This document shows, in pieces, positions 1,670 through 20,236 of a stretch of 21,958 bases of DNA. The translations under genes and the position numbers were made by a program. The number at the start of each line of letters is the position of its first letter. Positions within the stretch are counted from its first letter, which is position 1. The notes beneath the pieces were generated by a model. That model was not told the DNA's origin, made no database searches, and worked only from the letters and a program-made list of their open reading frames with translations. This stretch comes from a virus: the IMG/VR virus record IMGVR_UViG_3300021197_000197, positions 1 to 21,958 of that record; one strand, given 5' to 3'.

Positions 1670-3358
1670 TTATGTCTGGTCGCTTGTGCTGGGAGCGCCA
1701 AACATTGTGCCTAAATCTGCTAGAGCAGTGTCACCCTGTACCAACGAATCAAAATCACTAGGTTGCGTATAGCTAGTAGTGCTTGCTTGTACTGGCATAC
1801 CCTGAAGTAGCGAGTGCATATATTGAACCTGTTTGTAAGGATAATCTCTCTGCTCTTTAAATTGCTCGTAATCAGCCTGAACCCCAGCCTCATTAAGTGC
1901 TTGTTGGGTAGCTCCTGCTTCTTGCTGTGCTCTTAACGCATCTAAACCGTATTGGTTTGCAGCTTCTTGTTCTTTGAAGCCTCGATCTTGTGCTAAGCCA
2001 AACTGCTCTGCTGCCCTATCAAACCCAGCAGCTCTTTGTTCTGCTGACATATCTCCAATGTTTCTAGATAGGTTGGAAGCTGCTTCGGCACGCATAAGCG
2101 CATCTCTTGAACCACCAAACGCCCCAGCCTGTGTAAGTGCAGTGCGATCCTGTAGTCCTTGAATTTGGTTCTGCCTACTCATATCGGCAGCTGTGCGGTT
2201 AATAACTGTATCCGTATAAGGATTCATATAGGTCTGAAGATTTTCAGTATTAAACGCGTCAGGAGCAAATCCACTTGTGCCCATATCTGCAGTAGGGTCG
2301 GTTAAGTTGCCCATACTAGTAAACGCTTGATCTTGTAAGGTGCTAGCCCCTGCAGTTAGAGGGCCTCCATAGCTTTCATACCCCATCTCCGCCAATGCTT
2401 TACCCTGACCTAGCATATCGGTAACGTAGTCACCTGCCCAGTTAGATAGCGAAGACTCAGTGCCAACAGGCATATTTACATCTGTAGTAGTATCACCTGC
2501 TGTTAGCTGTTCATCGTTTGTGGTTGCAGGTGGCGTGCTTGAACCCGGATCAGTTCCTTGCCCTTGGAAATTAGTAGTGTATGGCTGATTCTTATATACT
2601 GAACCTAGTCCCTGTACAGCGTTTACATTACCACCCATATTGAATGAAGCCAGTCCCCCCTGCGCCATCTTCGGCATAAACTGTTGGGGGTCAATCTGTT
2701 TACCTTGTTTCGGATTACCTGTACGTGCTTGACGTACTCCATCCATCATATTATGTAACTGTTGTGCGCCGGCATCAGAATTACCGTTGCCTAGGTGACT
2801 TACTACATCAGCAGGTATTACAAACTCACCGTCACTTAGTCTAGCTTCCTGTACTCCATCTATATTAGCAGGTACTTCGTCAGCCATACCATCAGTCTTA
2901 CCACCTAAGTAGTAGCCCTTGTTCATAGAAGCTAAGCCACCAGCAGCCATGCCCTGTGACTGGTCCACAGCATCAGTAACTGGAGTGCTGGCAGGTATTC
3001 CCGCTTGCGTGTCTGCGGCTGCTTGGGCCTCTGCTACAGTAGAAAAAGCTCTTGGACTCAATGCGTCATCTTCACGCTCACCATAAAAAACATCTGTGAA
3101 GTAGTTTCTACCACCAGATCCGGGTCTACGGTCAGCATCATTATAGTCAACTGGCATTCTGTTTCGTACGGCGGTGTACTTTGGTATCTTACCTTGATAA
3201 CCTACTGCAGGCACGTTTGTTTGCGCTGCATCTGACATTGCATCAGCCGCATAATATTTTAACAGACTAGCCACAGCTGGGTTTTCTGTCTCGAGTTCAC
3301 CGAAATCAATATTCAATAGCCCAGAAAGGCTATCCAAGCCGCTTGGAACATTACTCAT
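1670..3358 (-). CDS. Virion-type protein with SDGEFVIPADVV and GAFGGSR modules
   Basis: 562 residues; ATG at 3358, with a GGTGAT ribosome site overlapping the stop of the giant gene. Two modules are visible. Residues about 136-230 hold MAAGGLASMNKGYYLGG, then S175-DGEFVIPADVVSHLGNG, an ARTGNPKQGKQ segment, and a second glycine motif, MAQGGLASFNMGG. Residues about 390-540 begin with an Arg/Ala-rich helical stretch containing GAFGGSR (412-418). They continue through Gln/Glu-rich helix and end near FKEQRDYPYKQVQ and LLQGMP. I recall both modules from uncultured marine phage and pelagiphage structural regions, where they are normally left as hypothetical. No cysteine, signal peptide or membrane segment is seen. 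Its place between the giant gene and another glycine-motif protein suggests a late virion component. The role is unknown; tail-tip, internal or scaffold-like roles are all possible. Confidence 0.8.
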   Translation of the reverse strand: MSNVPSGLDSLSGLLNIDFGELETENPAVASLLKYYAADAMSDAAQTNVPAVGYQGKIPKYTAVRNRMPVDYNDADRRPGSGGRNYFTDVFYGEREDDALSPRAFSTVAEAQAAADTQAGIPASTPVTDAVDQSQGMAAGGLASMNKGYYLGGKTDGMADEVPANIDGVQEARLSDGEFVIPADVVSHLGNGNSDAGAQQLHNMMDGVRQARTGNPKQGKQIDPQQFMPKMAQGGLASFNMGGNVNAVQGLGSVYKNQPYTTNFQGQGTDPGSSTPPATTNDEQLTAGDTTTDVNMPVGTESSLSNWAGDYVTDMLGQGKALAEMGYESYGGPLTAGASTLQDQAFTSMGNLTDPTADMGTSGFAPDAFNTENLQTYMNPYTDTVINRTAADMSRQNQIQGLQDRTALTQAGAFGGSRDALMRAEAASNLSRNIGDMSAEQRAAGFDRAAEQFGLAQDRGFKEQEAANQYGLDALRAQQEAGATQQALNEAGVQADYEQFKEQRDYPYKQVQYMHSLLQGMPVQASTTSYTQPSDFDSLVQGDTALADLGTMFGAPSTSDQT

Positions 3359-3365
3359 AATTTAA

Positions 3366-6300
3366 TCACCGCTTACCAATAATTTTAAGTATTTCATCTG
3401 TTTTAGCCTTTATTTTACCACCGGCTTTGTTGCCGTATGGAGTAAAACCACTATAAAACTTACTTTGTTGAGGAGTAGCAAAAATATTATCTCCTCCTAT
3501 GTCATACTGATACTGTATCATAGCAAGATCACCCGGTTTCCCTGATGTCGTAGTAGCCGTCCTACCTTTAGTTACAAACTTACGTATTCTTTCTTCTTCT
3601 TCCTCTTGCTCTATTCTAGCATTCTGAGCATCTATCTGAGTTTGCAAATCGTCGTTTCTCTGGCTCTCCTGCTCTATGTCTCCAATCAACCCAGTGGATT
3701 CCGGAGTAAATACCGAATCAACAAACCCAGAATAATCTCCAGTATTAATAGCGGCTTCCATATATTGTTGGTCTAACGTATTTAATACACCATCGTTATT
3801 AACATCATACATGGCTATTTCTGCTCTGTCATCCCTATTTTCTAGGATAACTTCATTTTCTGCAATGATTGTAGTTAGAGCATTTTTGTCTGCCTGAGTT
3901 ACTTCATTTACCTCAACACCAAGTATATCCGCCATCTGTTGTATAGTAAGGTCCTGAGCAGTTTGGCTTGCCTCGAAAGCATCCACGTCTGTCTGCAGAT
4001 CACCTACATCAGTCTGCAAGTCACCTACATCAGTCTGCAAGTCACCTACATCAGTCTGCACGTCGCCCACATCAGACTGCAACTGCTCTACGTTGGTTTC
4101 TATATTATCTACATCTGTTTTTACTTCTTCCAACTGCTCAGTAGTTGCATAGCCTTCCAAAGTTGCACTAAGGTCGGTGGGCGCTACGCCAGAAGCAATT
4201 TGCTGATCTATGTACTGATATATTCCAGTGGAGTCTGTGAATGTAGGATTACCCTCATCATCCAGAACGGGGGTAGTGTTACCATCATCATCTACTTCAG
4301 TTATGGGTTCAGGTGGTTTACCTACAACCCCTTCTACTATCTCTTGTACTTGTAAATTATTGAGGGTATCTTTAGCGTCTAACTCTGCATATATCCCCGT
4401 GCGTGCCTCTGGATCACCCATAGCAGCTACAGCAGCGTCTATAATCTCTTGCTTTTGAGTCTCATTAAGACCCATATCAGCTATTAATGCGTAAAGGCCT
4501 GTAGGTTGTGTAAGTACCGGGTCGCCATTCTCATCTACGATTAACTTGTTGTAAAAAGTTGGTTCGCCGCCATGTTGGTCACTTACGTCAATCGCTTCAT
4601 ACTGTTCTTCACCGCCGGGATCACCGATAGTTTCAAGTATTTGCCCGTCTACTGCCCTGCGCTCATCTTTCGCATGTGACACTAGGTTTCGAGCGTACGC
4701 ACTGCCCGCCTCATAAGAAAATAACGCCGTTTGCCATATGTAATCGTATATGCCGGTGTTATTCCCTACAAACTGAGGTCTGTCCTCCTCATCTAGGACA
4801 AACTGCCCATTATCATCCAAAAGGACAGCATTATTACCTAGTCTAGCATCAACAATGTTACCAACCGCTTCTTCATCAATACCTACGTCTATACCTTCTA
4901 TACCTTCCTTTATTTTTTTGTCTACTTCGGCTATTTTTTCGTCTATTTCGGCATATATACCGGTACGATCATCTTTATCCCCAAAGTTAGTTATGGCGGC
5001 ATCTACAAAGTCTTGTACTTCTTGTTGAGTTGCAAATCCAAAACTCTGCGCTATGGCATACACGCCTGTACCCGAATCCATAATTGGTTCATTAGTAACG
5101 GGGTCGTATTGAAGTACGCCGATCTCATTTCTAACCTGCTCGGGAGGACGACCAATGGCTTCCTTAATCTTATCGTCAACCATTGCGTTGGTCTCTACCG
5201 TAGTAGAGTAGTTAGCTAAAGAATCTGTTAGGCGTTCTAGATTTAACTCATCACTGGCAGCAACTTCATCTAGTATAAACTTGTACATCCCAGTAGGGGG
5301 TTCTACAGCTTGCTCTCCAGTATCGGGATCTATCACTGCATCCCCATTTTCATCAAATACTGGCTCACCACCCAAGCCACCTATGGCATCATTTACTACC
5401 TTTTGCGCATCTTCATCTGTGTAATCTGTCTTCTCATCTATAAGACCAAATAGCCCTGTAGGCGCAATATCTAAGTCTCTTTGTTCGTCAGATCGGTTTT
5501 TGTTATTAATAATTTTGTAGCGCGACTCGTAGTCGGAATAAGTAAACTCGCCGTCCCCGTTATAATCAAACCTTTCTATAAGGTCTTGAGGAAGCTCCCC
5601 AGTTTCTATATAACTATCTAACCAAGTTGTGTCTTCGCTAAACTCTGCAGGCAGCTGTTTTAAAAGACGTGTCCTCGCATCTGTTGTAACGCCATTTGTA
5701 GTTGACATGCCTTTATCGGGGAGGTATCCGTCTCTATTCTCAATACTACCCGAGGACATTAAACGGGCGAAGGTACGCAACTCGGCTACATCATTAAGGC
5801 CAGCCCTAGCTTCCCACCCCGGTTTAAAAGGTGTACCTATAACACCCTGCACAGAGTTTAGTAAGGCGTCTAGTTCGTCAACTTTTAATGTTTCACCATC
5901 GGTGCTAATCAGTCCGAGTTCTTGTGCAATAGCGTAAACTCCAGTATTTACGGACCCCATAGGTTCTTCAGAATCTGCATAACTTTGTAAGAGTTCAATG
6001 TCTTCTTCAGTAATAAGGTTATTCGTCCCGGGAGCAACATTGACTAACGCACGGTATTCGTCGTTACTTAACAAATGTAGACCTAAAAAGCCCCCCATAT
6101 AGTTAAGAGACCCACGGGACTCTTCTTCAACTATACGATCAATTCTTGGATCAATGCCACTGAGCGCCCTAAAGTCATTAAGGTTGTCCGCTTCCATCAG
6201 TGCTCTTAAATACTCTGGATCTTGTACGCCTGTCCACCCGAACGCTCTCTGCCCCAGAGCATCAGTAGCTATTTGTTCTAGTCGTTCGTCTGACAACCTC

Positions 6301-9300
6301 GCATCAATATCTTCTTCTATGACTGTTAGTCTGTCGCCATATTCTTGTATCTTATTGTCAGTGGCATATGTTTGTAGTCCAGTAGTGAATCGTAACTCTT
6401 CTAACTCACTATTAATTCCAGTAGAGGTTTCTTTCCACGTTCTATAATTCTCTGCGGCAGCAACATCATCCATACTAATAGTGCCAAAGAACGCAGTTTT
6501 GTCAGCATCGGTTATTACCCCATCACCGTCATAGTCATATGTAGGATCAACAGGTAAATCACCATTAATCATCTGATCTATATATTCTTGCTTGAAATAA
6601 TTATCTCTACCTTGTTCAGGAGCAGCTGGACCCCAAGCCTCAGCTATAGCATCTTGTAGAGCGCCAGTAATTTCATCGTCACCAAGTATTTTAGTTTCAA
6701 GATCATTAACTAAATTAGTGAACTTTTTATCTATCTCTACAAAAGCCTGACCTTTCTCGCCTTCTGGTAGGGTAATGGCATTTTGTATTTCTAAATACAA
6801 TCCACTAGGCTGTTTTTTTATACGTGTTAAGTCTGGAACACTTGATTTTGTTTCTTGGTCATATTTAGTGTAATATTCTGCAGGCTTACCTATTATGGTT
6901 TTGAACTCATCAACTTGGTCCTTCATTACTCCGTTAACAGCACTATCAAAACCGGGTATATCTTCGTATTTTTTAAATAGGTTATCTAGTGCCTTCTGCC
7001 TATCTACACCAACCTGTTCGTACACATCCGCTATTTCTGCATACAATCCAGTAGCGCCTATGTAATAAGAGCTAGTGGGGCTATAGTTATTTGCGGGACT
7101 ACCAATAGCTAATGCCTGATCGTCTAAACGCTGTGTAAATTCGGTGATGTTATCGGCAACTTGTTCTTCTAAATCTTCAACCTTAGAATCTAAAACTTTA
7201 ATGCTCCTGTCTTGACTTCTCTTATTTTCATTAAGCTGTTGTAAGTCATAGAGCACCCCAGAGCCTTCCCGTAATACCGTTGCGTCTCCTACATTTTGCT
7301 GATCTATATCTAATATCTTTCCATCTTTATCAGTATATAACCTACCGTTAGTTGGGAAATATTGTGCCCAAGTTGCATCAGATCTGCTGGCATATGCACC
7401 TGCACTCGTCTGCCTGACGATATAAGCATACCATGACGCATCGCTCTCTCCCGTACCACCTGACTTGCCGGTTGGGTCATAGTTGTCGGCAGATATATAC
7501 CCATCGCCATTATCATCTATCCATATAAAAGGCCCAACACCAATTAGATGGTCAGGGATTTTCATAGGCCCGTATTTTTCTATGTGGGCATATATATTTT
7601 CATGGGTTGCGTCTACTTCGTAATATTTCTGCTCTTTACCAAAAACGTCATCTATAATATCCATTTGGCCTTCGATACTAACGCCCAACTGCTCTAAATC
7701 TTGTTTTAAGCCGTCTAAAGACTCGTTTATGTTTCCTATAGCACCCGAACCACCAATAGCAGTGGCGAAACTATCAGACTCTAGAAAGTCTGCAAGTGAG
7801 GACCTTATAAGTGCATTCGTTTCTGTTTCATCCATGCTAGCGCTAGTTATGGCATTTACAAGACCAGTGCTATCTAAGAACTCACTCAGTGCCCCACTCA
7901 GAATAGTATCTACATCATCCGCTGTTTGAAATTCTGTGAAGTCAGGTAACGCATCCAGTTCAGTTTGGAAGTCTTCGGCGGTCACATAATTTTTGAGTGA
8001 ATCACTTATAGTACCAGCTACATCGTCTGCTGTTTGGAAATCACCAATAGCGGTATTAAAATCGTCGCTGTCTAAGAAATCTGCTAAACTATTAGTTATA
8101 AGAGTGTTTGCTTCGGTTTGGTCTAAACTATTTTCTTTGATTGTATCTACTAAGCGAGTGTCACCTAGGAAGTTTGTTAGTGAAACACCTATAGCCCCTA
8201 TAATCTCTTCTTCGGTTGGGCCTACAGCATTTAAGAAATCGTCGCTTACCAAGAAATCCCCAAGTGCCCCAGATATTATGGTTGCTACTTCACTCGAATC
8301 AACCCCCACCATACTTTGGAAAAGGTCTCCCCTTACAAAATTACCAAACGCTTCATTTACTTCACCTACAGTCAACCCCGCATCAGGTAAAGCATCTTTA
8401 AACGCATCACTCTCTAGGAAGGTCTCTAGTGAAGTATCTACAACATCTTGCACTCCATCTTCATCTAAACCTGCTTCGGGAATTTCTGGTAGTGCGGTTA
8501 TAAATTCTTCCGTTGTCAAGAAGTCGGAAAAAACCTCTTCTACAGCAGTTTTATCTAACCCCGCTTCTGGTAAGTCTAGAGTTTTTACATAGTCTACCAG
8601 TTTGTCTGTTATTGCGGTTTCTACATCGTCTGATGTTACAGCATCAGGCAGTTCTAGGTCACTCGACTTAACGTAGTCTGTTAAAGAATCAGTTATAAGA
8701 GTCTTAACTGCCTCTTCATCTTGCAAACCGGTTACATTAGGAATTATTTCTGTAAGTGCTTCGGACGTCAGGAAATTTGTTAATGAGTCAGTAATTAGAG
8801 TAGAAACATCACTTACTGTTTGGAAATCAGAAGTGTCATCTGCAGTTATAAAACCATCAGTGCTAGGCAAAGCGTTTTTAAAATCATCCGACCCTATAAA
8901 GGCTGTAAGTAACGCCGCTACGTCATCTGCATTGTCTACATCTAGGAACGTACCATCTTCTTTTAGTTTGCTAACTATACTTTCGGTAAGAGTAGATATA
9001 TTTTCATCCACAGCAAACGCATTAGCAACTTCAGTCGCAATTAATCCTTCTGCACCTGCAAGGCCGTCGTACTTCAAACTAAGGGCAGCTATTGCTTCGG
9101 TTGCAGTAACTCCTTGTTCTTTTAGCGTTGTGATGTCTGTTTTTATTGTTTCTGCTTCGCTGGCGTCCACGAGAGAATCTCCTACAAAAGTGTCTAATAT
9201 GCCTGTTTGGTTGGGAGTATGTTCTACCTCTTGGGTATTTACCTTATATTCATACTCTTCTAAAGCATTTCGTTCAAATATGTTAAGACCTTTCTTGTAA

Positions 9301-12300
9301 GCCTCAACGTCTTCATTAGTTAGAGAACCATCTTCATCGTAGTCAAATACTGACGCTTGGCCCCCTTGTTCAGCAATAGCGTACATCCGTTGTATTATGT
9401 CGTAATGATGCTGTGGTGTCGGTCTGTCTGAATATGTATCCTGTATATCATCAGGATTAGCTAACTGGTAAGCATCTGCAAGTTGCTGGTCAAAGTCTGC
9501 CTCATTAAAGTCATCCGTGTCACTAGGCAAGTTAATAGCAAAATTAATTGCATCTTTACTTGGGTTCTCTATACCCATCTTAACATACGACTCAATAGCT
9601 TCTGTAGTGCTTATGTAGCTAGCGTCATCTGTAGCATTTAGTAAGTCGTTACCGGCATTAAACCCAGCCATACCTAAATCGTTTGCTATGCTATTTACTG
9701 CTTCTACATCCCCACTGTTTATGGCTTCCTGCAACTCAGGATTTTGACTTATAGCTAAGTGTACTAGGGGGTTATTAGATTCGGCATTCGTAGTAAAGCC
9801 GCCCGCAGGACCGCTACCACTAGGCCCACCGGCTTGGTCAATTACCCCGTTAATAGCTAATATAGGTCCGGTAGTTCCAGCTGATGCTATCATTGACAAC
9901 ACAACATTTGAAGCCATCTCACCACCAAAATCTCTATCCGGGTCCATAGTTGCTAGAGAAGTTTCCTTAATATATGTGGACGCAGCGGCTTCAGCACCTT
10001 CCGCCCCAGTTTCTTTAAGAACTACAACCCCGTTTTTAACAAGTAACCCACCTAGATCATCGGAAACATTTTTAGCGCCTCTTTCAGCTAACACATCTGT
10101 AGCTTCTCCCAGCGCACCTTTAAAAATAGTCCCCTCTAACGCCTGACTACCCCCTGACAGTATGCCTACCATCATTGCAGCTGTAGCACCTACTTTTATA
10201 GACAGCCCCGCTGCATACTCCCCAGCATAAGCCTCTAACCCTGCGCCACTTAATCCAAGTGCGTCTCTACCATAAGTCTCTGCAGTTGAGTAAGCGTCTT
10301 CATAAGTCTCCATGACCCCACCACCAGCAGCTTCCACCATATCTGTAGCCAAGCCTGTCTTTAGTGCCGCCTTAGAAGCCATCATGTTGGCCGCTTCCTC
10401 TGTAAGATCTTTTACCGCTGCAAGACCCCCCGCTTTAACTGCAGCAAAAGTAACTCCGCCAAGAGCTAGTGGGATTAATTCACTTACGACCTCTACACCC
10501 ACAAACTCTATTAAGAAAGTAGTCGGGTGAGCTACAAACTCGCCGAATATGGCTTTTGTAGTGCCCATAAACCCTTCAGCTTCATCTATGTTTTTCATCA
10601 TTACTTTGAAGGTATCTTGGTGATCTTGAGACATGTACCCCATAGCCATACCTTGTATAGCATCTAGGTTTTTGGACATTTGATTTTCCATAGAGAAGTC
10701 TATGTTTTTAATGGCCGCATCATACACTAAATCATAAGTTGCTTGAGCTTCCTCCTCACCAGCCCCCGCTAACAATAACGCATTCTTAGCCTGAACAGCA
10801 TCTCTTCTGGCATTACCTATTTGTGCGTTAGTGGATATACTCATAGCAAAACTGTTAAACGCTCCGGCTACTTCAGTAACCCCACGAATTGTTGCAGAGA
10901 GGGCAGCCGCTTCTTTACCCGAGGCATTAGCATATTCTTCGTCGTAGGCTGCCTGAGCATCCTCATCATTACCACCGCTAAGTTTCACGTTGTCATAGGC
11001 ACGTTGCGCCTGCTTCTTAACGCCAGCCTCTGACTCGTGGTCAAGTATTCCTTTTATGGTCCTATAAACCCACGAAGTTTCACCTTCCTTTAGAGGCTCT
11101 TGCCCGTTTGCTTCGCGTACGTTGTTTTCTGCAATCCTAGCTTCTTCTGGCGGTAATACTCCCAACACCTGTAGGTATGCAGTTGGATCATACTTAGCTG
11201 TCTCTTGTAAAGTTAGCCCCATAGGACGCTCTGAAACGGTTAGTTGAGAGCCCCCCTCAACACCTTGATATTGCACTAGGGTAGTAGGTTGTATCCACTT
11301 TTTAGACCCGTCAGGTAGTGTTACAAGTCTTAACTGGTTAGTAGCTAGGGCATTAATTACAGTGGCACGCTGCTCGGGATCGTCCTCAAAAAGACCTAAC
11401 ACATCAGATACTATATTAGTGTAGCCCTGTGTTGCTAATATATAGTTTACCTCTGGTATGCTAAGTAACGGCGAATCTTCCGGAGTAAATGCAGTGGATA
11501 CAAGCGTGGCAGGGTCGTAATTAAAATTTATGTTAGAATCTGGGTCTTGAGATGTTTGTAAAAACTCTAATGTAGTGGCTGAACCTGCTGCCTCTCCCTG
11601 AGCTTCTGCTTGCGCAAGTATACTATTAAATACTGCGGCTCTTTGTCCGGCTGATAGCTTACTAACATCTATACCCGACTGCTGTAACGCAAAGTCTGTT
11701 TGGTCCGACACTGCGCCATACAGCAACGATTTATATTGGGTTTCGCTTACAGGAACTCCTTCAAATATACCAACACTTAAATAATGTTCGTGAGCATCTT
11801 CTACAGGTATACCATTGGCTGCTGCGTATTCTTCAGTCCCCCGCCAGTAGCCGTTTATATCTAATATCGAAGCATCTAATACGTTACCAAAGAAAGGATT
11901 TAACGCATCATCTCTAAGCTGTATTTCGGCGCTTAACTCGCCTGTTGCGGTTTGGTATATTGAATTTTGAACTTCATGCTGCCCTGCTAAGTTGAGTATA
12001 TTAGAATTTATATCCTCTAAAGCTAATGTATCTAAAGTCGTTTGCACGCTATCTGCTTCTATAGCATCGTAATATACTTGTTTGTCTCCTTCAGAAGCGC
12101 CGGGAGCATTAGCGGCTATTCTTTTTGTTTCTATGTCTTGCTTCCTAGCTTCCTGTAGTTCCTGTATTTCAGTTATCTTAGCTATTTCAGCGTCAATTTC
12201 TTTATCTAGCCTATCTCTTTCAGCTGCCGCATTTTTCGCATCCTTGTATTTTGTTGTAGCTCTTTCCGTAGTATCGAGTACAGTCTGTTTAACCTCGTTA

Positions 12301-15300
12301 ATACCCATAGATACCGAGTTTTTAAGATGAGTTACTACAGCATCCCCTATAGTATTTAAGAAAGCACTTTCAATATTCCCTCCCTGCATAGCGGCATTTA
12401 GACTGCTGCGTAGTGCTACAGTAAACAATTCGGGAGTTATCATGTTTACTAGATTGGAGTCTTTAAATGCTTCGTTTACTCTCTCAGCAACTACTAATTC
12501 CCTACTAATTATGCGGGCTTTATTCTCATCAGTAAGCTCTCCCGTCACAACCAAAGTGCCAAAAGACTCTTCTAGAATGTTTTTAAGGTCATTCGGCAGC
12601 TCATCTACCGCAATACCCATAAGGTTAGCTGTACCCTCCACCATCTCATCAATTCTTTCCAAGGTGCCTTCAGGAAGTTCATCTGCAAAAACTGTACCCA
12701 TACCCACAAATTTAGACATTGCACCCTTTACAGAGTCAGATATAGGTTCTATAACGGAATTGTCTATATTTTCACCTATAGTTCTTATTTCACCCTCTAA
12801 CTTGTCAAACGCAGCTTTCATCCCTTCTGTTGTGTCAAGCAAGGAATCTATGCTTCCTTCCGGAAGCTGTTCTGTTACTAGATCTAGTAGAGGTTGTATT
12901 GCTTCACTGTCTAACACCTCGCCAACTTGAGATGCGGCGTCTTTTAAATCATTAATAGCTTCGCCAAGAAAGTTATTGAACTCTCCGCTTATATTATTTT
13001 CGTCAAAAAAGTTAGATACAACGTCCCCAGCCTTTTCTCCAACGACACTTGCCGCTTCTTTATTTAGAGCATCCGTAAAACTGTCCCCATCCGCAACGTC
13101 TACTACTATTTGCGAAACAGAATCCATTACATAGTCTGGAACTGAACTAGTGTCTACTCCTAAATACTCAAACCCACTAGACAGGTAGTCTGCACCAAAG
13201 CCACTCATTATGGCGCTTCCTACGTTGTCCCCAGAGCCAATAGCATTTATAAGTGTTACAGTTTGGCGGGCAGTCAGGCCAAATAATCCTACCCCCGCGG
13301 CAGTAGCTATGGCAACTTGATTACCCACAGCTAAAGCTGCATTCACAGCAACTGTTCCGGTTACGCCAAGTTTTCCAAGCCTATCGAGTTCGTCATAGTA
13401 GGCAAGTTCCCCCGCCATCTCCGCTTCTTCAGCACCGGCGGGCATTTTTAACTTACCATCAATTTGTAGTGCCGCTAGTATAGCCTGAGCGTAGTCTTCT
13501 CCTTTTAATGTCCTACCGTCTCCCAAAATACTATTAAGGCCTTTAAGGCCAACAAGGATCAAGGTAGCTACAGGACTAAGCGCAGCAGCAAGGTTTAGTA
13601 TGGGGTTATCTAACCCTTTTTCAAGAGTACCAACACGTCTAGGCTGCGACACCCAAACCATAGAGTATGACCCAGTAGGAGCTTTACCGCCCGTAATGTC
13701 GATTAGAAACCCGTCACCCGCATTACTATCGCCCGGGTTGGCATACTCACTGTAATCCGGCATTTCACCATCAAAATAGTAAGTATGGTTTAGTACCCAA
13801 TCCGCTCCTTGAATTTGATTATGGCCGTCCATCACGAACTCATCGCCAAACTGTGCGCCACCCTTCATATATAGCTTAGAAGAGTCATACCACAAGTCCA
13901 TGTCTCCCATCATTTCATCTATGACTTCAGAGTCTGCTTCTACGTATAAGGGCATCTCTAATCGCTGAAGTTCTTTACCCCAATCCGCTAGTTGTTTATT
14001 AAACGACCATTCATGCTTAGGCATCATATACTCAGCGTCGTGCGGTATACCCCCCGCCCAGTAAAGTTGTCCATTTGCAAAGTATGAATTATTAGTTGAA
14101 CCGGATGAATATTCCATTCCGAACCGCCAAGTGTCGGTGGTATACTTCCATAAATCGTCTGACTCTTCGTAGTTGATTCTGTTGCGCCAAGCATCTTGCG
14201 CTAATGTAAACTTGTTCTCCTCTGCTATACTCCCTAGGGCAGTGCCTTCCCCAAAGTTATCTTGTTTATCGGGTAGCTCATAGAAATATTCTTCTACAGA
14301 ATCTAGGGTGTACAATCTTGCTATATCATCAACAGTTAAACTATCAGGGTCTTCTTGGTATTTCCTAGCTGCAGTTGCCAACATGTGCATAGCACCGTAC
14401 GTCGGCTCTACTTCATCCGCCCAAGCCGCCAGCTGATCAGCGGGGATGTCTTTTAACGAACCGTATTCCTGTATGTCAGCCGTGGTAAACGACTTTTTTA
14501 GCTGGTCAGTAACACCGGATGGGTTAAGTGCATGTTTTGGTACTTTCTCCCATGTGGATTCCCATTCTTCTGGTATGCTTCTAAACTGTCTTTGTGCATG
14601 ATCCTCACCAAATAAAAGTGCTAAGCTGTAGTATCCCGCCGCCATTTCCTCAGCAGTAGGTATAGAATCAACGCCAACAACCCACTCCGCAGGTAACGGT
14701 TCTTGTGGACGCCATGCAGGATTTTTAACCCCCGCCACTGTTATTGCTAAGTCAGGATCATTAGGCATACGAAGTTCAAACATATCGCGTAGCGTTATGT
14801 ATTCTAGAGTCTCCGGGTCAATACCTAGTGTTATGTCTGTATCTTCTAGCTCTACGCCCCCATACATTCCTCTTGTAGCGGTAGCCGTAGTATTTGTTTT
14901 CAACCATGACTCCGCGGCCCATCTTCCTATTCCGTTTGCGTAAGTCTTAGCCTCGTCCTCATAGCCTTCAACAACTAAGCCCTCTTCCCATCGAGGGTCA
15001 TACCATACTGTTTTTTCTAACTCACTTTCATACCCACCAGACATTATAGATTGATAACCAGCAATAAGTTCTTCAGCCGTTAAGGGTCTAGAATATCCTT
15101 GGTAGTGTACGGTGTAAGGGTTTGCATTAGTAAACGCTAACTGGGGGGCGCCATCATTGGCAAACCCCGAAAGCTGATACCCCAATACAGCGCCACCTTC
15201 AACCTCGAAATTGTCATTGACTGTCAGCCCCGTATATATTTTTGCTAACCTATTATCAAGCTGTATACGTTCGTCGTAACTAAAATTTGACCCATCGGCT

Positions 15301-15635
15301 TTAACATCTTCCGTTAGATCAGTACCCCGCATTCCTTGGGTATATCTCTGAAAGAGTAGCCCATCAGATAGGGCATCAAGTTCACCATTGCCTACTAAGT
15401 CAAATAAATTGAAAAGGTTGGGGTTTTTTTCTTTGTTAGTTACTTCGTCGAGATATTGTTCTATTTCTTCTGCACTACGAACGCCCTCTTCATTTGGTAC
15501 TAGGCCCTCGACTAAGGCATCTCTCCTTACCTCATTCAGGTATCTGGAGAACAACTGGGCATCTTTTTCGTCTATAACACCATCACGGTTTATATCAAAA
15601 GGGCTATAAGCAGTTTTGTTATTATCTTCAGCCAT
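3366..15635 (-). CDS. Giant 4089-residue modular virion protein or adhesin-like protein, cysteine-free
   Basis: One uninterrupted frame of 4089 residues; ATG at 15635, with AAGG about 8 nt upstream overlapping the fibre stop. From the N-terminus: an EF-hand/dockerin-like loop D14-x-N-x-D-G with D25, and a degenerate one at D79; a mixed Trp/Tyr-rich region to about 670; hydrophobic segments near 680-700 and 758-790; helical and charged sequence to about 1180; an HYLSVGIFEG motif at 1284; a second hydrophobic cluster (1707-1740, 1811-1830, 1907-1932). Then come an EF loop at D2098, about 14 degenerate helical repeats (2210-2631), EF loops at D2707, D3034 and D3357, about 13 TG(I/L)Y modules (2862-3990), a heptad coiled coil (about 3832-3887), an EF loop at D3944 and a Lys/Gly-rich tail. 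By eye there is no cysteine. It lies between a tail fibre and virion-type proteins. A Ca2+-dependent giant fibre/adhesin or an ejected virion protein fits best; the function is not established. Confidence 0.9.
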   Translation of the reverse strand: MAEDNNKTAYSPFDINRDGVIDEKDAQLFSRYLNEVRRDALVEGLVPNEEGVRSAEEIEQYLDEVTNKEKNPNLFNLFDLVGNGELDALSDGLLFQRYTQGMRGTDLTEDVKADGSNFSYDERIQLDNRLAKIYTGLTVNDNFEVEGGAVLGYQLSGFANDGAPQLAFTNANPYTVHYQGYSRPLTAEELIAGYQSIMSGGYESELEKTVWYDPRWEEGLVVEGYEDEAKTYANGIGRWAAESWLKTNTTATATRGMYGGVELEDTDITLGIDPETLEYITLRDMFELRMPNDPDLAITVAGVKNPAWRPQEPLPAEWVVGVDSIPTAEEMAAGYYSLALLFGEDHAQRQFRSIPEEWESTWEKVPKHALNPSGVTDQLKKSFTTADIQEYGSLKDIPADQLAAWADEVEPTYGAMHMLATAARKYQEDPDSLTVDDIARLYTLDSVEEYFYELPDKQDNFGEGTALGSIAEENKFTLAQDAWRNRINYEESDDLWKYTTDTWRFGMEYSSGSTNNSYFANGQLYWAGGIPHDAEYMMPKHEWSFNKQLADWGKELQRLEMPLYVEADSEVIDEMMGDMDLWYDSSKLYMKGGAQFGDEFVMDGHNQIQGADWVLNHTYYFDGEMPDYSEYANPGDSNAGDGFLIDITGGKAPTGSYSMVWVSQPRRVGTLEKGLDNPILNLAAALSPVATLILVGLKGLNSILGDGRTLKGEDYAQAILAALQIDGKLKMPAGAEEAEMAGELAYYDELDRLGKLGVTGTVAVNAALAVGNQVAIATAAGVGLFGLTARQTVTLINAIGSGDNVGSAIMSGFGADYLSSGFEYLGVDTSSVPDYVMDSVSQIVVDVADGDSFTDALNKEAASVVGEKAGDVVSNFFDENNISGEFNNFLGEAINDLKDAASQVGEVLDSEAIQPLLDLVTEQLPEGSIDSLLDTTEGMKAAFDKLEGEIRTIGENIDNSVIEPISDSVKGAMSKFVGMGTVFADELPEGTLERIDEMVEGTANLMGIAVDELPNDLKNILEESFGTLVVTGELTDENKARIISRELVVAERVNEAFKDSNLVNMITPELFTVALRSSLNAAMQGGNIESAFLNTIGDAVVTHLKNSVSMGINEVKQTVLDTTERATTKYKDAKNAAAERDRLDKEIDAEIAKITEIQELQEARKQDIETKRIAANAPGASEGDKQVYYDAIEADSVQTTLDTLALEDINSNILNLAGQHEVQNSIYQTATGELSAEIQLRDDALNPFFGNVLDASILDINGYWRGTEEYAAANGIPVEDAHEHYLSVGIFEGVPVSETQYKSLLYGAVSDQTDFALQQSGIDVSKLSAGQRAAVFNSILAQAEAQGEAAGSATTLEFLQTSQDPDSNINFNYDPATLVSTAFTPEDSPLLSIPEVNYILATQGYTNIVSDVLGLFEDDPEQRATVINALATNQLRLVTLPDGSKKWIQPTTLVQYQGVEGGSQLTVSERPMGLTLQETAKYDPTAYLQVLGVLPPEEARIAENNVREANGQEPLKEGETSWVYRTIKGILDHESEAGVKKQAQRAYDNVKLSGGNDEDAQAAYDEEYANASGKEAAALSATIRGVTEVAGAFNSFAMSISTNAQIGNARRDAVQAKNALLLAGAGEEEAQATYDLVYDAAIKNIDFSMENQMSKNLDAIQGMAMGYMSQDHQDTFKVMMKNIDEAEGFMGTTKAIFGEFVAHPTTFLIEFVGVEVVSELIPLALGGVTFAAVKAGGLAAVKDLTEEAANMMASKAALKTGLATDMVEAAGGGVMETYEDAYSTAETYGRDALGLSGAGLEAYAGEYAAGLSIKVGATAAMMVGILSGGSQALEGTIFKGALGEATDVLAERGAKNVSDDLGGLLVKNGVVVLKETGAEGAEAAASTYIKETSLATMDPDRDFGGEMASNVVLSMIASAGTTGPILAINGVIDQAGGPSGSGPAGGFTTNAESNNPLVHLAISQNPELQEAINSGDVEAVNSIANDLGMAGFNAGNDLLNATDDASYISTTEAIESYVKMGIENPSKDAINFAINLPSDTDDFNEADFDQQLADAYQLANPDDIQDTYSDRPTPQHHYDIIQRMYAIAEQGGQASVFDYDEDGSLTNEDVEAYKKGLNIFERNALEEYEYKVNTQEVEHTPNQTGILDTFVGDSLVDASEAETIKTDITTLKEQGVTATEAIAALSLKYDGLAGAEGLIATEVANAFAVDENISTLTESIVSKLKEDGTFLDVDNADDVAALLTAFIGSDDFKNALPSTDGFITADDTSDFQTVSDVSTLITDSLTNFLTSEALTEIIPNVTGLQDEEAVKTLITDSLTDYVKSSDLELPDAVTSDDVETAITDKLVDYVKTLDLPEAGLDKTAVEEVFSDFLTTEEFITALPEIPEAGLDEDGVQDVVDTSLETFLESDAFKDALPDAGLTVGEVNEAFGNFVRGDLFQSMVGVDSSEVATIISGALGDFLVSDDFLNAVGPTEEEIIGAIGVSLTNFLGDTRLVDTIKENSLDQTEANTLITNSLADFLDSDDFNTAIGDFQTADDVAGTISDSLKNYVTAEDFQTELDALPDFTEFQTADDVDTILSGALSEFLDSTGLVNAITSASMDETETNALIRSSLADFLESDSFATAIGGSGAIGNINESLDGLKQDLEQLGVSIEGQMDIIDDVFGKEQKYYEVDATHENIYAHIEKYGPMKIPDHLIGVGPFIWIDDNGDGYISADNYDPTGKSGGTGESDASWYAYIVRQTSAGAYASRSDATWAQYFPTNGRLYTDKDGKILDIDQQNVGDATVLREGSGVLYDLQQLNENKRSQDRSIKVLDSKVEDLEEQVADNITEFTQRLDDQALAIGSPANNYSPTSSYYIGATGLYAEIADVYEQVGVDRQKALDNLFKKYEDIPGFDSAVNGVMKDQVDEFKTIIGKPAEYYTKYDQETKSSVPDLTRIKKQPSGLYLEIQNAITLPEGEKGQAFVEIDKKFTNLVNDLETKILGDDEITGALQDAIAEAWGPAAPEQGRDNYFKQEYIDQMINGDLPVDPTYDYDGDGVITDADKTAFFGTISMDDVAAAENYRTWKETSTGINSELEELRFTTGLQTYATDNKIQEYGDRLTVIEEDIDARLSDERLEQIATDALGQRAFGWTGVQDPEYLRALMEADNLNDFRALSGIDPRIDRIVEEESRGSLNYMGGFLGLHLLSNDEYRALVNVAPGTNNLITEEDIELLQSYADSEEPMGSVNTGVYAIAQELGLISTDGETLKVDELDALLNSVQGVIGTPFKPGWEARAGLNDVAELRTFARLMSSGSIENRDGYLPDKGMSTTNGVTTDARTRLLKQLPAEFSEDTTWLDSYIETGELPQDLIERFDYNGDGEFTYSDYESRYKIINNKNRSDEQRDLDIAPTGLFGLIDEKTDYTDEDAQKVVNDAIGGLGGEPVFDENGDAVIDPDTGEQAVEPPTGMYKFILDEVAASDELNLERLTDSLANYSTTVETNAMVDDKIKEAIGRPPEQVRNEIGVLQYDPVTNEPIMDSGTGVYAIAQSFGFATQQEVQDFVDAAITNFGDKDDRTGIYAEIDEKIAEVDKKIKEGIEGIDVGIDEEAVGNIVDARLGNNAVLLDDNGQFVLDEEDRPQFVGNNTGIYDYIWQTALFSYEAGSAYARNLVSHAKDERRAVDGQILETIGDPGGEEQYEAIDVSDQHGGEPTFYNKLIVDENGDPVLTQPTGLYALIADMGLNETQKQEIIDAAVAAMGDPEARTGIYAELDAKDTLNNLQVQEIVEGVVGKPPEPITEVDDDGNTTPVLDDEGNPTFTDSTGIYQYIDQQIASGVAPTDLSATLEGYATTEQLEEVKTDVDNIETNVEQLQSDVGDVQTDVGDLQTDVGDLQTDVGDLQTDVDAFEASQTAQDLTIQQMADILGVEVNEVTQADKNALTTIIAENEVILENRDDRAEIAMYDVNNDGVLNTLDQQYMEAAINTGDYSGFVDSVFTPESTGLIGDIEQESQRNDDLQTQIDAQNARIEQEEEEERIRKFVTKGRTATTTSGKPGDLAMIQYQYDIGGDNIFATPQQSKFYSGFTPYGNKAGGKIKAKTDEILKIIGKR
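3660..7055 (-). repeat. About 13 dispersed TG(I/L/V)Y modules in the C-terminal third of the giant protein
   Basis: Short motifs TGLYAEI, SGLYLEI, TGVYAIA, TGLFGLI, TGMYKFI, TGIYDYI, TGIYQYI and others recur between residues 2862 and 3990, spaced about 30-200 residues apart. Many are preceded by (I/L/V)GxP and a DxxG turn pair (for example VGKPPEP, DDDGN, DDEGNP, then TGIY), suggesting a beta-hairpin plus helix module repeated along a stalk. Confidence 0.8.
3991..4080 (-). repeat. 21-bp tandem repeat encoding the heptad DLQTDVG
   Basis: Four consecutive 21-bp units begin at 3991, 4012, 4033 and 4054, with a partial fifth from 4075. The two central units are identical and the outer ones differ at 1-4 positions. 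Each encodes one seven-residue heptad (DLQTDVG or variants such as DVQTDVG), forming the core of a coiled coil near residues 3832-3887 of the giant protein. Unit number is likely to vary by slippage. Confidence 0.92.
7743..9008 (-). repeat. Array of about 14 degenerate 24-37-residue protein repeats in the giant protein
   Basis: Residues 2210-2631 of the giant protein consist of units such as TADDVDTILSGALSEFLDS, DQTEANTLITNSLADFLDS and TSDDVETAITDKLVDYVKT. The rough consensus is (D/T)xx(D/E)VxxhIxxSLxxFLxSxxFxxAh, often ending in LP or G before the next unit. The repeats have diverged at the DNA level, so the array is old. Each unit is probably two short helices. Confidence 0.85.
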
Positions 15636-15644
15636 GAATCAGCC

Positions 15645-17336
15645 TTATAGTGAAGCGATTATGAATGCTAGTAATTCGGGATACCGAACACCGCGTCTTG
15701 TTACCTCTGTAGCTGTAACACCTTCTGGTATGTGTGCCTGCTCTTCGTATATTTCGCCTTCGTGTTCCCACCAAGTAGTGCTAATAAACATAGCGTACTT
15801 GCCAGCATCTAAACCCCCGGCAGTGAAAGCAGCTTCAAGGTCTTGAGCAATGATACCAAAGTGTATTCTAGCATTATCACCTTTTTCTGCAACTGAATCT
15901 ATCCATCTAAACTTGCGTAGTAAGCCTTTTGCAGCTAAAGCTACTCTTTTTTCTGCGTCAGATAGTTCTTCTATGTCTTGTTTTAAGTTTCCATCTGATG
16001 TCTGTATTGTACCATTAGTAGCATATATATCATCAAACCTAACAGATGAACTACCTAAGTCTACTACATTATCTTCAAAATCTCCTATCCCATCACAAGG
16101 CGATACCCTTTGAGTAGAAAACTGTGTAGTAGCCAAGAGTCCACATCCGGAGCCAGCAAAAAATGTACCACTACCATAAGAAACCTCAGTGTAGCCTAAA
16201 CTACCCCTAAAATTACTACCTGCAATCATGCTAATCATACGACCATCTTGAGAGCCGCTTGTATTGCTGTTAGTAATGGTAACTATTGGATTTTCTTCTT
16301 GAGTTTTACCGTCAGTAAAAGTTATAGGTGTAGACAGCTGAGAACCTGTAATACTTCCAGTTAGCTTGTCAGGTGTAATTGTTGTATTAGCTATCTTAGC
16401 TCCGGTAACTGCGGAGTCAGCTATTTTTGCTGTAGTTACGTTTGCATCAGTTATTGCCGCAGTTAGGACACAGTTAGAACCAAGATTACCAGAACCGATT
16501 GTGTTAGCAGCTATCTTAGCCCCAGTAACTGCTTGAGTTCCTAACCTATCAGTGTTTACTGCCCCATCTGCTATTTTTGCAGTTGTAACAGCGTCATCAG
16601 CTAATCTTGCTGTAACCACAGCGCCGTCTGCAATAGTTAGGGCTGTAGCTCCTGTAACTTCGCCTGTATGTGTAGCATTAGTTACTTTAGCTGTGTTGGC
16701 TGTAATGGCTGAGTTTATTGCGTCTGCAAGTTTTGCATCTGTTACTGCGTCGTCAGCTATTTTTGCTGTAGTTATATTTGCATCTGCTATCTTAGCTGTA
16801 GTTACGTTTGCATCAGTTATTGCCGCAGTTAGGACACAGTTAGAACCAAGATTACCAGAACCGATTGTGTTAGCAGCTATCTTAGCCCCAGTAACTGCTT
16901 GAGTCCCTAACCTATCAGTGTTTACTGCTCCATCCGCTATTTTTGCAGTTGTAACAGCGTCATCAGCTAACCTTGATTCCGTTACAGCGCCCGCCGCTAT
17001 CTGTATCCCCGCTATAGTTCCAGTTAAGTTAGCTGCAGGGTAGTTTGTTGCGCTACTCAAATTAAATGCTGGGGTGGCACTAGAACCACCTAAAGCCACA
17101 GTTACACCACCAAAAGATACTGTAGAATTTTCTAGTTTACTGTTAGGTATAGAGCCATCAATTATGTCACTGGTATCAAACTGCAACGCCTTTGAAAGCG
17201 CTTCGTCTATATTAGCAAAGTAAAATTTAAGCACATTATCTTTTTGTGCTTCGTAAACAGCGCTGTAGGTTATTGGTGGTTGTGGTAAAGCTGGCGCATG
17301 AAATAACTTATTGGTATTCCGTATCTTTGTAGCCAT
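15645..17336 (-). CDS. Tail fibre/needle protein with C-terminal peptidase S74 intramolecular chaperone
   Basis: 563 residues; ATG at 17336 only 2 nt after the upstream stop, with GAGG inside the end of that gene. Residues 1-60 form an N-terminal region with KLFHAPALPQPP, likely the virion anchor. Residues about 115-330 are short repeats of the type A(V/I)TxAKIAD and TGAKIANT, typical of beta-rich trimeric fibre shafts, with one long unit duplicated. The C-terminus matches the peptidase S74 chaperone family: S447-D-G-N-L-K452 keeps the Ser and Lys that carry out autocleavage in characterised members, HFGIIAQDLE follows at 492, and a final YPELLAFI helix is present. By family knowledge the last ~117 residues should guide trimer folding and then be cut off before S447. 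It probably binds the host surface. The family call is firm; the receptor is unknown. Confidence 0.92.
   Translation of the reverse strand: MATKIRNTNKLFHAPALPQPPITYSAVYEAQKDNVLKFYFANIDEALSKALQFDTSDIIDGSIPNSKLENSTVSFGGVTVALGGSSATPAFNLSSATNYPAANLTGTIAGIQIAAGAVTESRLADDAVTTAKIADGAVNTDRLGTQAVTGAKIAANTIGSGNLGSNCVLTAAITDANVTTAKIADANITTAKIADDAVTDAKLADAINSAITANTAKVTNATHTGEVTGATALTIADGAVVTARLADDAVTTAKIADGAVNTDRLGTQAVTGAKIAANTIGSGNLGSNCVLTAAITDANVTTAKIADSAVTGAKIANTTITPDKLTGSITGSQLSTPITFTDGKTQEENPIVTITNSNTSGSQDGRMISMIAGSNFRGSLGYTEVSYGSGTFFAGSGCGLLATTQFSTQRVSPCDGIGDFEDNVVDLGSSSVRFDDIYATNGTIQTSDGNLKQDIEELSDAEKRVALAAKGLLRKFRWIDSVAEKGDNARIHFGIIAQDLEAAFTAGGLDAGKYAMFISTTWWEHEGEIYEEQAHIPEGVTATEVTRRGVRYPELLAFIIASL
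16429..16604 (-). repeat. Direct repeat copy B in the tail fibre gene (176 bp)
   Basis: This stretch recurs 366 bp further along, at 16795-16970, with only a few mismatches, mostly silent. 366 bp is exactly 122 codons, so both copies are in the same frame and encode the same shaft segment (including GSGNLGSNCVLTAAITDAN). It is the downstream copy in the direction of translation. Confidence 0.9.
16795..16970 (-). repeat. Direct repeat copy A in the tail fibre gene (176 bp)
   Basis: Partner of the copy at 16429-16604. The near identity at the DNA level, much higher than in the surrounding degenerate AKIAD repeats, indicates a recent duplication or ongoing gene conversion in the fibre shaft. 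Confidence 0.9.
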
Positions 17337-17338
17337 TA

Positions 17339-19510
17339 CTAGCCTCGTCTACCGTCTGGACGCATGTTTAGTCGTAACGTACCCAACTGCCATTTTACCC
17401 CTAGAGTATCTGATTCTACCTTTATAGCTATTTGCCTACCACGAACACGTACGTCTAGTTGTTTTGTATACTGATCTACGGAATTTGTTGTTACCACTAC
17501 GCCATCACTGTTACCCCCTTCAGACAAAGGATCATTATTAACAGCGCCAGACTCACTAGCTCCCAATATAGATAGCGTAGTAGATATGTCGCCATCAGAA
17601 GCGGAACCCAAAAATTGAACGTCTGGTATGACCCTATCTACAAAAGTAAAACTATTGCCCGACTCTATGCCAAACTGGCCAGAGGTTATAAAAGCAGTTA
17701 TGGGTGCAGTCTGTACATCTTGGTTATTATCTAACCCATTCTCATGCTCTACCAAGTTATAACTTTCGGTTGCTGCCAAAGGAAAATCGTTTATTGTAGA
17801 GTCTAACCAAGCACTACGATCCATAGTGCCATAATACCAAACGTCTTCTAAGTAGTTGTACACTACATACTTATTAGGAGCAACACGTTCCTCAGAACAA
17901 TAGAACCACCACACTTCATGGTACTCTTCTAAAGTGCCCGCGAATACTTGTCCATATTGACCTTGTTCTAAATCATCAAATATATATTTTCTTACATCGC
18001 ATCTTAGAGGTTGGACAGTTCCATCGTACTTATAGAACTTTTCTTTGCCCATCCAGTACGTTACTCCGTTGGCGTATGCAACGGCCTTCGACGAAGCTAC
18101 TGATATGTTCGACCCAACCAACTGAGAACCCCATACTATGGGAGCACCAACATACTGTAACGAATATACAGAAGAATCGGTGAAAACCAATATTTCTTGC
18201 CGTGACTGGATTGCAGTCATTATTTTTGTGCCTTGGGATAACTGCAAGTCTCCTGCTTGGTTAGTTGAACGTGGTCGCCAGTCAAACATATCTTCTTGAT
18301 CTGACCAACGTATTAACATTGGATTCTTTGTTTCTGTGTCGTCACCAAAAGCATTACAACCAAAACAAAATACAAATCTACTAGCATCTGATACTAATAA
18401 CATATCTTGTACGACAGGAACCTCTGCAGAGACTTCATATTGTGCGGTAACTGAACTACCCCCACCAGTGCCAGTAGAATTAGCGTTTGTTCCTCCAGTT
18501 ATAGTAAAGGTGTTAGCTGCAGTATCAACGGTTTGTATTTTAAACCTACCATTAAGAGCTACATTGTTTACTGTGCCTGCATTTGCAAATGTGACATGTT
18601 GTCCCGATTCGTACACTCTACTTAACGTAGCGTCTGTCACTGTAACTGTAGGAGACGTGTTCACCGTAGCGAAAGGGTTTGAAGCTAGCGACACGGCTGC
18701 TCCGTTATTTACATTTTTAACCGCTTGTAATCGAGTGGCTGTTTTATTCGCATCATCAAAAGTTACTGACCCTGTATCCCAATAATATAACTCTCCACCA
18801 CGCGGCCCTACTATAAGGTCTTCACCGAAGTTTGCTTGGTTCCACGTACGTAAGTCTTCTGCACCACCAGCACCTTGGTTAAAGCCCCCACTATTCCATG
18901 CCAACGAACTCCAACCTTGTGTAGGAACTACTAAAGATGGCCCTATATTTAGTTGATATGTAGCAACAACTGAAGTGCCGCCACCCGCAGAGACAGTGCT
19001 TGTAGCCTCGGTAGCCACTACAACTTTATATTTGCTTGTACTAACTACTTCTGTTATGACATGCTCTTTGTTTATGTCTGTGTGTGGTATGCCACCTACA
19101 TTACCACTGGGTACTCCAGATATAGTTACATAGCTACCCAAAGTAGCTCCATGACTAGCATGTGTTATTTCTATAGAGGTAGATTCGTCGGTGGTTTTTA
19201 TAGGGTTATCTAAGTTACCACTAGTAAGCCTTATAGGAGTTACATCATAATATATGGCTGCGTGCTCTACATAAAACTTTACATTTGTCCCAACGCCTGT
19301 ATAAACATTAGAACTTAAATCTACCCACTGGAATATTGATCTACAGACCCCCGTAAATGTTTCATCGCTAATCTTTCTCCAACCACCAATCTTTTCTGCA
19401 TAGCCTTGACGAAAGCGCACTTTATCGCAATCGTGCCAACCAGCCTCATTAGTGTACTTGGTTATCTCACGATTTATACCCGGGTTAAATTCAAGTTTGC
19501 TTAATGGCAT
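17339..19510 (-). CDS. P22 gp10/phage stabilisation-like tail or connector protein
   Basis: 723 residues; ATG at 19510, 1 nt after the lysin stop. The N-terminus (MPLSKLEFNPGINREITKYT, then GW-HDCDKVRFRQGYAEKIGGW to residue 44) is the hallmark of a phage protein widespread in podovirus-like genomes and usually labelled stabilisation protein or tail hub; I relate it to the P22 gp10 family from memory. The middle is beta-rich and appears to hold two copies of a related domain (about 103-188 and 276-361). Each ends in a Gly/Ser turn such as TGTGGGSSVTAQYE and resembles small FCCH-like beta domains inserted in phage tail proteins. The remainder (DMFDWRPRSTNQAGDL, then VYSLQYVGAP and EEYHEVWWFYCSEE) looks like beta-propeller blades. 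It probably closes the portal or tail channel. It lies immediately before the fibre gene, as expected for a tail module. The family call is moderately sure. Confidence 0.72.
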   Translation of the reverse strand: MPLSKLEFNPGINREITKYTNEAGWHDCDKVRFRQGYAEKIGGWRKISDETFTGVCRSIFQWVDLSSNVYTGVGTNVKFYVEHAAIYYDVTPIRLTSGNLDNPIKTTDESTSIEITHASHGATLGSYVTISGVPSGNVGGIPHTDINKEHVITEVVSTSKYKVVVATEATSTVSAGGGTSVVATYQLNIGPSLVVPTQGWSSLAWNSGGFNQGAGGAEDLRTWNQANFGEDLIVGPRGGELYYWDTGSVTFDDANKTATRLQAVKNVNNGAAVSLASNPFATVNTSPTVTVTDATLSRVYESGQHVTFANAGTVNNVALNGRFKIQTVDTAANTFTITGGTNANSTGTGGGSSVTAQYEVSAEVPVVQDMLLVSDASRFVFCFGCNAFGDDTETKNPMLIRWSDQEDMFDWRPRSTNQAGDLQLSQGTKIMTAIQSRQEILVFTDSSVYSLQYVGAPIVWGSQLVGSNISVASSKAVAYANGVTYWMGKEKFYKYDGTVQPLRCDVRKYIFDDLEQGQYGQVFAGTLEEYHEVWWFYCSEERVAPNKYVVYNYLEDVWYYGTMDRSAWLDSTINDFPLAATESYNLVEHENGLDNNQDVQTAPITAFITSGQFGIESGNSFTFVDRVIPDVQFLGSASDGDISTTLSILGASESGAVNNDPLSEGGNSDGVVVTTNSVDQYTKQLDVRVRGRQIAIKVESDTLGVKWQLGTLRLNMRPDGRRG

Positions 19511-19511
19511 A

Positions 19512-19859
19512 TTAGTATTTCCAAGCTACTGGGGTAGTCTCCCGCGTGTCTACATGCACAAAACCTTTAGCAACACCAATACCATTGAAACCCATGATAG
19601 AAGCATTACGTATAATAGCCATACGCTGCGCACCACCCACTACCTTTATGTCAGCAGCAATGCCTTGACTGTGTGTGCCCGGCCTTACTTTTTTAGCTTC
19701 AATGCTGTGGTTAGGCGATCTGTACCCACTAGTTATGATAAACGGAAACCCACACACCTCACGCAGTGCATCAAGTTTCTGTAAGAAGTCAGGACACATC
19801 TCATTCTCACCAGTTTCCTGACAATTAAAATCTTCTACTTTAAAATACTTTAGGCTCAT
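19512..19859 (-). CDS. Endolysin: M15-type zinc D-Ala-D-Ala/L-Ala-D-Glu peptidase
   Basis: 115 residues, the usual length for the single-domain M15 (VanY/Peptidase_M15_3) lysins of phages. Visible signatures are SGYRSPNH at 44-51, H63-SQGIAAD70 and FVH102VD, which supply the expected Zn ligands His63, Asp70 and His102; the C-terminal WKY is also typical. It should cut peptide cross-links in the murein at the end of infection. No signal peptide or TM is present, so access to the wall would depend on the holin gene directly upstream. The start ATG overlaps the holin stop (ATGA). Because no good Shine-Dalgarno lies before it, translation is probably coupled to the holin. Cys13, Cys22 and Cys36 are present but have no known role. 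Confidence 0.93.
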   Translation of the reverse strand: MSLKYFKVEDFNCQETGENEMCPDFLQKLDALREVCGFPFIITSGYRSPNHSIEAKKVRPGTHSQGIAADIKVVGGAQRMAIIRNASIMGFNGIGVAKGFVHVDTRETTPVAWKY

Positions 19860-20227: not shown

Positions 20228-20232
20228 ATATA

Positions 20233-20236
20233 CCTC
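20233..20236 (-). promoter_or_regulatory. Ribosome binding site GAGG for the holin, overlapping the upstream stop
   Basis: On the minus strand TGAGG combines the stop of the coiled-coil gene (TGA, 20237-20235) with a GAGG 5 nt from the holin ATG at 20227. This gives the holin its own initiation signal and probably reinitiation by ribosomes that finish the upstream gene. The endolysin, by contrast, has only the ATGA overlap. Confidence 0.55.

Follow-up and report, generated by a model that had tools for sequence, protein, structure and literature searches.

What could a single gene of 12.3 kb contribute to the late operon of a short-tailed phage, and does the protein of more than four thousand residues that it encodes belong to any characterised family? 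The question is raised by a viral sequence of 21,958 bases, which is a complete IMG/VR record and was analysed at its full length as the window; it is linear and probably a fragment. The giant protein encoded there is real, belongs to a widespread family and has no characterised counterpart. It is probably a virion component, and its position and composition make it likely that it serves a short-tailed phage of the LUZ24/P22 lineage as a further ejection (internal virion) protein, one whose length varies between relatives.

Gene neighbourhood and protein architecture

All convincing genes in the window lie on the minus strand (Table 1). The initial annotation had described the 12.3-kb frame as one uninterrupted gene, and this was confirmed, with 4089 codons read from an ATG. 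Its length is not an assembly accident, because open homologues occur on independent contigs (L113, 4156 aa; L111, at least 4151 aa; L102, at least 4268 aa; L217, 5302 aa). Only 9 bases separate the giant gene from the fibre gene and 7 bases from the p562 gene. Upstream lie a holin-like gene and genes for an M15-type endolysin, a gp10/tubeB-like protein and an S74 fibre; the last two, previously recognised from the bare sequence, were verified by database matches. The fibre gene additionally contains a 218-nt internal duplication (16417-16634 and 16783-17000, 92% identical) amid a set of shorter repeats, which suggests recent repeat expansion.

Table 1. Coordinates of genes in the window and of segments within the giant gene
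Feature	Position	Strand	Remarks
Giant ORF	3366..15635	-	4089 aa; ATG start; no internal stop; 0 Cys; net charge -478
gp10/tubeB-like head-closure or tail-tube protein	17339..19510	-	phrog_3287, E 1.7e-66; 6 Cys
Tail fibre, S74 intramolecular chaperone domain	15645..17336	-	E 1.9e-10; 4 Cys
p562, virion-type protein	1670..3358	-	SDGEFVIPADVV domain and C-terminal domain; 0 Cys
p549	3..1649	-	Cut by window end; 819 aa in relative L103; 0 Cys
N-terminal dockerin/EF-hand module, residues 1-119	15279..15635	-	Pfam Dockerin_1 match at 13-39
Core segment a, residues 177-580	13896..15107	-	Common to close giants
H1 segment, residues 581-880	12996..13895	-	Conserved GSYSMVWV motif, then Ala/Gly-rich, moderately hydrophobic helices
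H2 segment, residues 1600-2060	9456..10838	-	Predicted all-helical (low-confidence model)
Calcium-loop-like motif, from residue 2098	9306..9344	-	Present in L102 too
Calcium-loop-like motif, from residue 3034	6498..6536	-	
IGxP...TGxY repeat modules, residues 2844-3810	4206..7106	-	Longer, expanded array in L102
21-nt tandem repeats encoding heptad coiled-coil-like stretch	3980..4084	-	DVGDLQT
Conserved C-terminal tip	3369..3548	-	YD..sIFa...Q..FY..SPYg...GG.i...TDEILkIIG

A Pfam scan of the giant returned one domain above cut-off, Dockerin_1 (E 2.8e-7), which scored 31.1 bits where the gathering threshold is 22.9 and was aligned over part of its length. The N-terminal module around it recurs in two homologues, with residues 1-119 matching 528-648 of L111 and residues 10-102 matching 259-350 of L113. 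Further calcium-loop-like motifs occur at residues 2098, 2707, 3034 and 3944, and all 11 TGxY motifs, often preceded by IGxP, fall within residues 2862-3803, against 0.8 expected from shuffles. The H2 segment is also found in four shorter homologues (L024, L086, L087 and L093). Of the domain list first proposed, the dockerin/EF-hand module, the calcium-loop-like and TGxY motifs and the heptad-like stretch hold, whereas the hydrophobic regions are weak evidence and fall below threshold in some homologues. Segments with KD>1.5 lie at residues 679, 767, 1707 and 1808; they are missing from L111, L102 and nearly all known ejection proteins and therefore do not discriminate, so that transmembrane segments were dropped as evidence for ejection.

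AlphaFold models of giant segments reached mean pLDDT values of 53.3 (residues 165-1340) and 49.3 (residues 1600-2260), too weak for fold comparison, and hint that the conserved domains are mainly helical. TM-scores normalised to the query in a Foldseek search with a low-confidence model (about 0.05-0.12) were uninformative and were disregarded, and profile searches against PDB sequences returned coiled-coil or designed-helix noise or nothing.

Length variation and selection across the family

The giant belongs to a widespread family of proteins from uncultured short-tailed phages, not characterised before, whose members are very large, acidic, poor in cysteine and rich in calcium motifs. When the conserved C-terminal tip was used as the query, 80 loci were found, in which the tip is carried by proteins of widely differing length; of the 79 tip ORFs measured, 46 were complete (383-3111 aa), and longer members were retrieved in full separately. 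Overall, homologues range from 383 to 5302 aa without any change of position in the gene order, which rules out a conserved length of about 4.1 thousand residues for all giants. The closest relatives of the giant are L002 and L003 (92-95% identity), while L017/L103 supply the corresponding downstream region from a further contig, at 87-89% identity. L128 is 44% identical over 1759 aa, and L113, L111 and L102 are about 24-29% identical in their main matched segments. The other full-length giants measure 5302, 5229, 4156, 4049, 3948, 3829 and 3754 aa, with about 25% identity in matched parts. Arrays of thrombospondin-type-3-like (TSP3-like) calcium loops are N-terminal in L217, L221, L111 and L222, but in L220 most of them lie between H2 and the tip, which implies that modules move.

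Neither the annotated phage records searched nor two scans of bacterial genomes yielded a relative of the giant. These searches define a giant-protein family of uncultured short-tailed phages that has no isolate or named family, and in which one gene can take about a quarter of a contig (15.9 kb of 66.4 kb for the 5302-aa member).

Keeping 12 kb intact had been taken as a sign of strong selection. This view survives for residues 1801-2100, which overlap the predicted helical H2 segment (dN/dS 0.05-0.07), and for the last ~190 residues (0.17 against L017), but not for the gene as a whole, for which dN/dS is 0.72 against L002 and 0.57 against L003. Taken as a whole, the giant is under weak selection; strict constraint is confined to a single helical domain and the region close to the C-terminus. 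For comparison, gp10 gave 0.13 and 0.34 against the same two relatives, and the lysis genes about 0. These ratios are approximate, since dS differs between neighbouring genes and recombination is likely. Compared with L002 and L003, the window shows almost no change in its holin, endolysin, p163 and p285 genes (19512-21558; dS about 0-0.05), whereas gp10 and the fibre are far more divergent (dS 0.15-0.67); this step is a probable recombination boundary.

The downstream block and its cysteine depletion

On contigs that are long enough, the recurrent order is gp10, fibre, giant, p562, a protein of ~600-820 aa and one of ~2000-2200 aa. The placement originally noted, after a gp10-like protein and a fibre and before virion-type proteins, is thus borne out, and in the window and its relatives the giant gene lies downstream of the tail-tube/closure genes, where ejection clusters are found. 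The p562 position is filled by a single gene of 500-700 aa or by two genes of ~230 and ~290 aa. In cultured LUZ24-type relatives, the slot of the giant holds a protein of 290-760 aa, followed by a p562 homologue and then by products assigned to the internal virion proteins through annotation or placement; the phiGT1 study likewise located the internal virion genes of the LUZ24 lineage on the right-hand side of the tube genes (PMC10386132). Furthermore, gp10 of phiM5, its p562 homologue ('detected in phage particle proteome') and the next three proteins are annotated in the phage record as found in particles. In many relatives the widespread SDGEFVIPADVV domain is found at the C-terminal end of the slot protein, but in the window it lies within the first half of p562; this shift in position indicates that genes have fused and split within the family.

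In L103, the p549 counterpart is followed by a cysteine-free protein of 2147 aa. The C-terminal 800 residues of this ~2100-aa protein match DarB-like and other very large families (phrog_10089, E 1.9e-35). Homology between its N-terminal region and H2 appeared likely by eye, yet the hhalign probability was near 1% and no such relationship is claimed.

The composition of this block is distinctive. The giant, p562 and the 819-aa and 2147-aa proteins (the last two taken from the ~89% identical relative L103) contain no cysteine in 7,617 aa, against 19 in 2,130 aa, or 8.9 per 1000, for the other seven proteins of the window, among them the gp10-like protein and the S74 fibre, which stand outside the cysteine-free block. 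Even with p562 and p549 added to the reference set, 5.9 cysteines per 1000 remain, a rate that would give zero in 4089 aa with a probability of ~4e-11. To calibrate this property, we used T7, N4, P22 and SU10. Their ejection proteins contain one cysteine in a total of 10,820 aa, whereas nearly all of their portal, tube and spike proteins have several; among proteins of at least 400 aa, cysteine is lacking in 8/8 ejected proteins and in 1/16 others (p 1.2e-5). Across 80 gp10 loci, 73 of 84 proteins of this size downstream of gp10 lack cysteine, compared with 6 of 42 upstream and none of the 80 gp10 proteins themselves (downstream against upstream, p 1e-15, which is nominal as the loci are related).

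Within the tip family, 79 ORFs contain 11 cysteines in 135,595 aa, and 9 of the 46 complete members carry one or two, so the property is depletion rather than absence. Short fibres without cysteine occur too. Two papers on N4-like phages noted the lack of cysteine in the giant virion RNA polymerase and proposed transit as the reason (PMC3715699, PMC3915230); our literature search found no statement of cysteine absence for ejection proteins in general, although such a paper may exist. The lack of cysteine, which the giant shares, is a property of ejection proteins observed here and not an established definition. Calibrated in this way, cysteine depletion offers a simple, homology-free marker for candidate ejection operons.

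Candidate roles of the giant protein

We favour ejection because the giant constantly sits directly before the counterparts of LUZ24-type internal virion genes, and position together with the lack of cysteine points to the ejected set in particular. LUZ24 gp50-53, phiM5 gp27-31 and SU10 gp20-24 occupy the same operon region after gp10/tubeB-type genes and all lack cysteine. For SU10, gp20-24 have been demonstrated to exit the particle, and in DEV gp71-73 have been identified as ejection proteins (PMC9509320, PMC10925440). Although phiM5 gp27 is homologous to p562, the giant itself has no homologue among the LUZ24, phiM5 and SU10 ejection proteins, and comparisons with T7 gp14-16 and P22 gp7/20/16 likewise gave no sequence similarity. 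Ejection proteins vary in size and domains, and groups are often matched by size and synteny rather than by sequence (PMC8954989).

Gene order, family membership, composition and conservation are established here, whereas virion location, ejection and calcium-triggered folding are inferred. A few copies of the giant would be packed into the head as extended, reduced chains free of calcium. On infection they would pass out along the tail channel, either ahead of the DNA or alongside it, accompanied by p562, the ~600-820 aa protein and the ~2100-aa DarB-like protein. Without cysteine, the chain would avoid disulfide trapping during transit of the periplasm. Outside the host cytoplasm, the dockerin, EF-hand and thrombospondin-type-3-like loops may bind Ca2+ and fold; contact with the conduit may fall to the helical H1/H2 domains and the conserved C-terminal tip. 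A bolder version, to which we give little credence, is that a chain of four to five thousand residues is ejected extended and folds module by module as it encounters Ca2+ beyond the host cytoplasm, calcium binding thereby helping to draw it out of the particle or building a long extension of the DNA conduit, in the manner of RTX proteins in type I secretion. Should the giant be ejected, it would rank with the largest phage proteins for which delivery into a host is known, and it would put to the test how such long chains get through a narrow tail channel.

Several features count against ejection, among them the lack of sequence similarity to known ejection proteins and the incomplete cysteine rule described above. 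The giant carries a net charge of -11.7 per 100 aa, and giants in general range from about -10 to -15, compared with -3 to +3 for known ejection proteins; near neutrality is a descriptive rather than an established definition of the class, but the giant lacks it, and such acidity is odd for a protein packed with DNA. Moreover, calcium-type modules are typical of secreted adhesins. Dockerin/TSP3 calcium-binding proteins and RTX-type adhesins are acidic and cysteine-poor with repeated calcium-loop modules, as is the giant, and giant secreted adhesins tend to lack cysteine. Unlike these proteins, the giant is encoded in a phage late operon, and no match to its core and tip was found among them.

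The acidity and calcium modules would suit the main rival reading, an external tail appendage, a fibre or whisker stabilised by Ca2+ in the manner of RTX or dockerin-bearing adhesins of bacteria, with the C-terminal tip on the tail and the variable modules facing the host surface. The calcium modules vary in number and position among relatives, the gene adjoins that of the S74 fibre, the protein evolves fast, and its coiled-coil-like and IGxP-TGxY repeats fit such a structure. However, the fibre of the same phage carries four cysteines, and genes in the fibre position average 2.5 per 1000 aa, a rate at which zero in 4089 has a probability near 4e-5. In addition, the conserved domains are predicted, in low-confidence models, to be mainly helical, and the block-wide absence of cysteine is common to internal virion proteins. 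We regard an external appendage as rather unlikely. As for receptor-binding or fibre domains, the giant shows only coiled-coil-like and calcium modules, and Pfam and PHROGs searches gave no match to a fibre family.

An ejected protein could also act as an effector in the host cytoplasm, like the N4 virion RNA polymerase or P1 DarB, rather than as part of a conduit. N4 gp50 (3500 aa) and DEV gp71 (3398 aa), both ejected polymerases, resemble the giant in size, lack of cysteine and location in an ejection cluster, and the DarB-like match of the last block gene is compatible with such a role. The giant differs from these polymerases in being far more acidic, in its calcium-type modules and in being encoded first in its block, whereas the N4-type polymerase is encoded last. 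Against a cytoplasmic role, it has no enzymatic domain in Pfam or PHROGs and no similarity to N4 gp50, and its calcium modules suit an extracytoplasmic site; we consider such a role improbable. Identity with an N4-type virion RNA polymerase was rejected, as no polymerase domain (Pfam) and no similarity to N4 gp50 were detected. Tail tape measure proteins are long and helical like the giant, and some shorter slot proteins are publicly annotated as such; this identity was also discarded given the absence of a Pfam/PHROG tape-measure match, the gp10/tubeB-type, short-tail gene set and a family spanning more than a tenfold range of lengths. Searches found no homology to these proteins or to known ejection proteins. 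The proposal that one giant gene stands among the late structural genes of a short-tailed phage and matches no characterised family from end to end is supported. Finally, a non-virion late product, such as a surface or assembly factor, is very improbable for a gene that lies inside the structural block and shares its composition with particle proteins.

Several minor observations concern the block itself. Across loci L019-L098, a short motif of the type [AFMRY]xGG[ILMVKY] occurs 112 times in the cysteine-free downstream block against 36 in shuffles (~3-fold), with no enrichment upstream; the tip of the giant does not fit the exact pattern. The last block protein of L103 (~2100 aa, 7575-14018) contains an HExxH stretch and an E3-binding-type match (E 1.5e-5). 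Beyond it, at 14306-17113, lies an oppositely oriented DUF927 primase/helicase gene whose product has 14 cysteines, and the cysteine-free run ends there.
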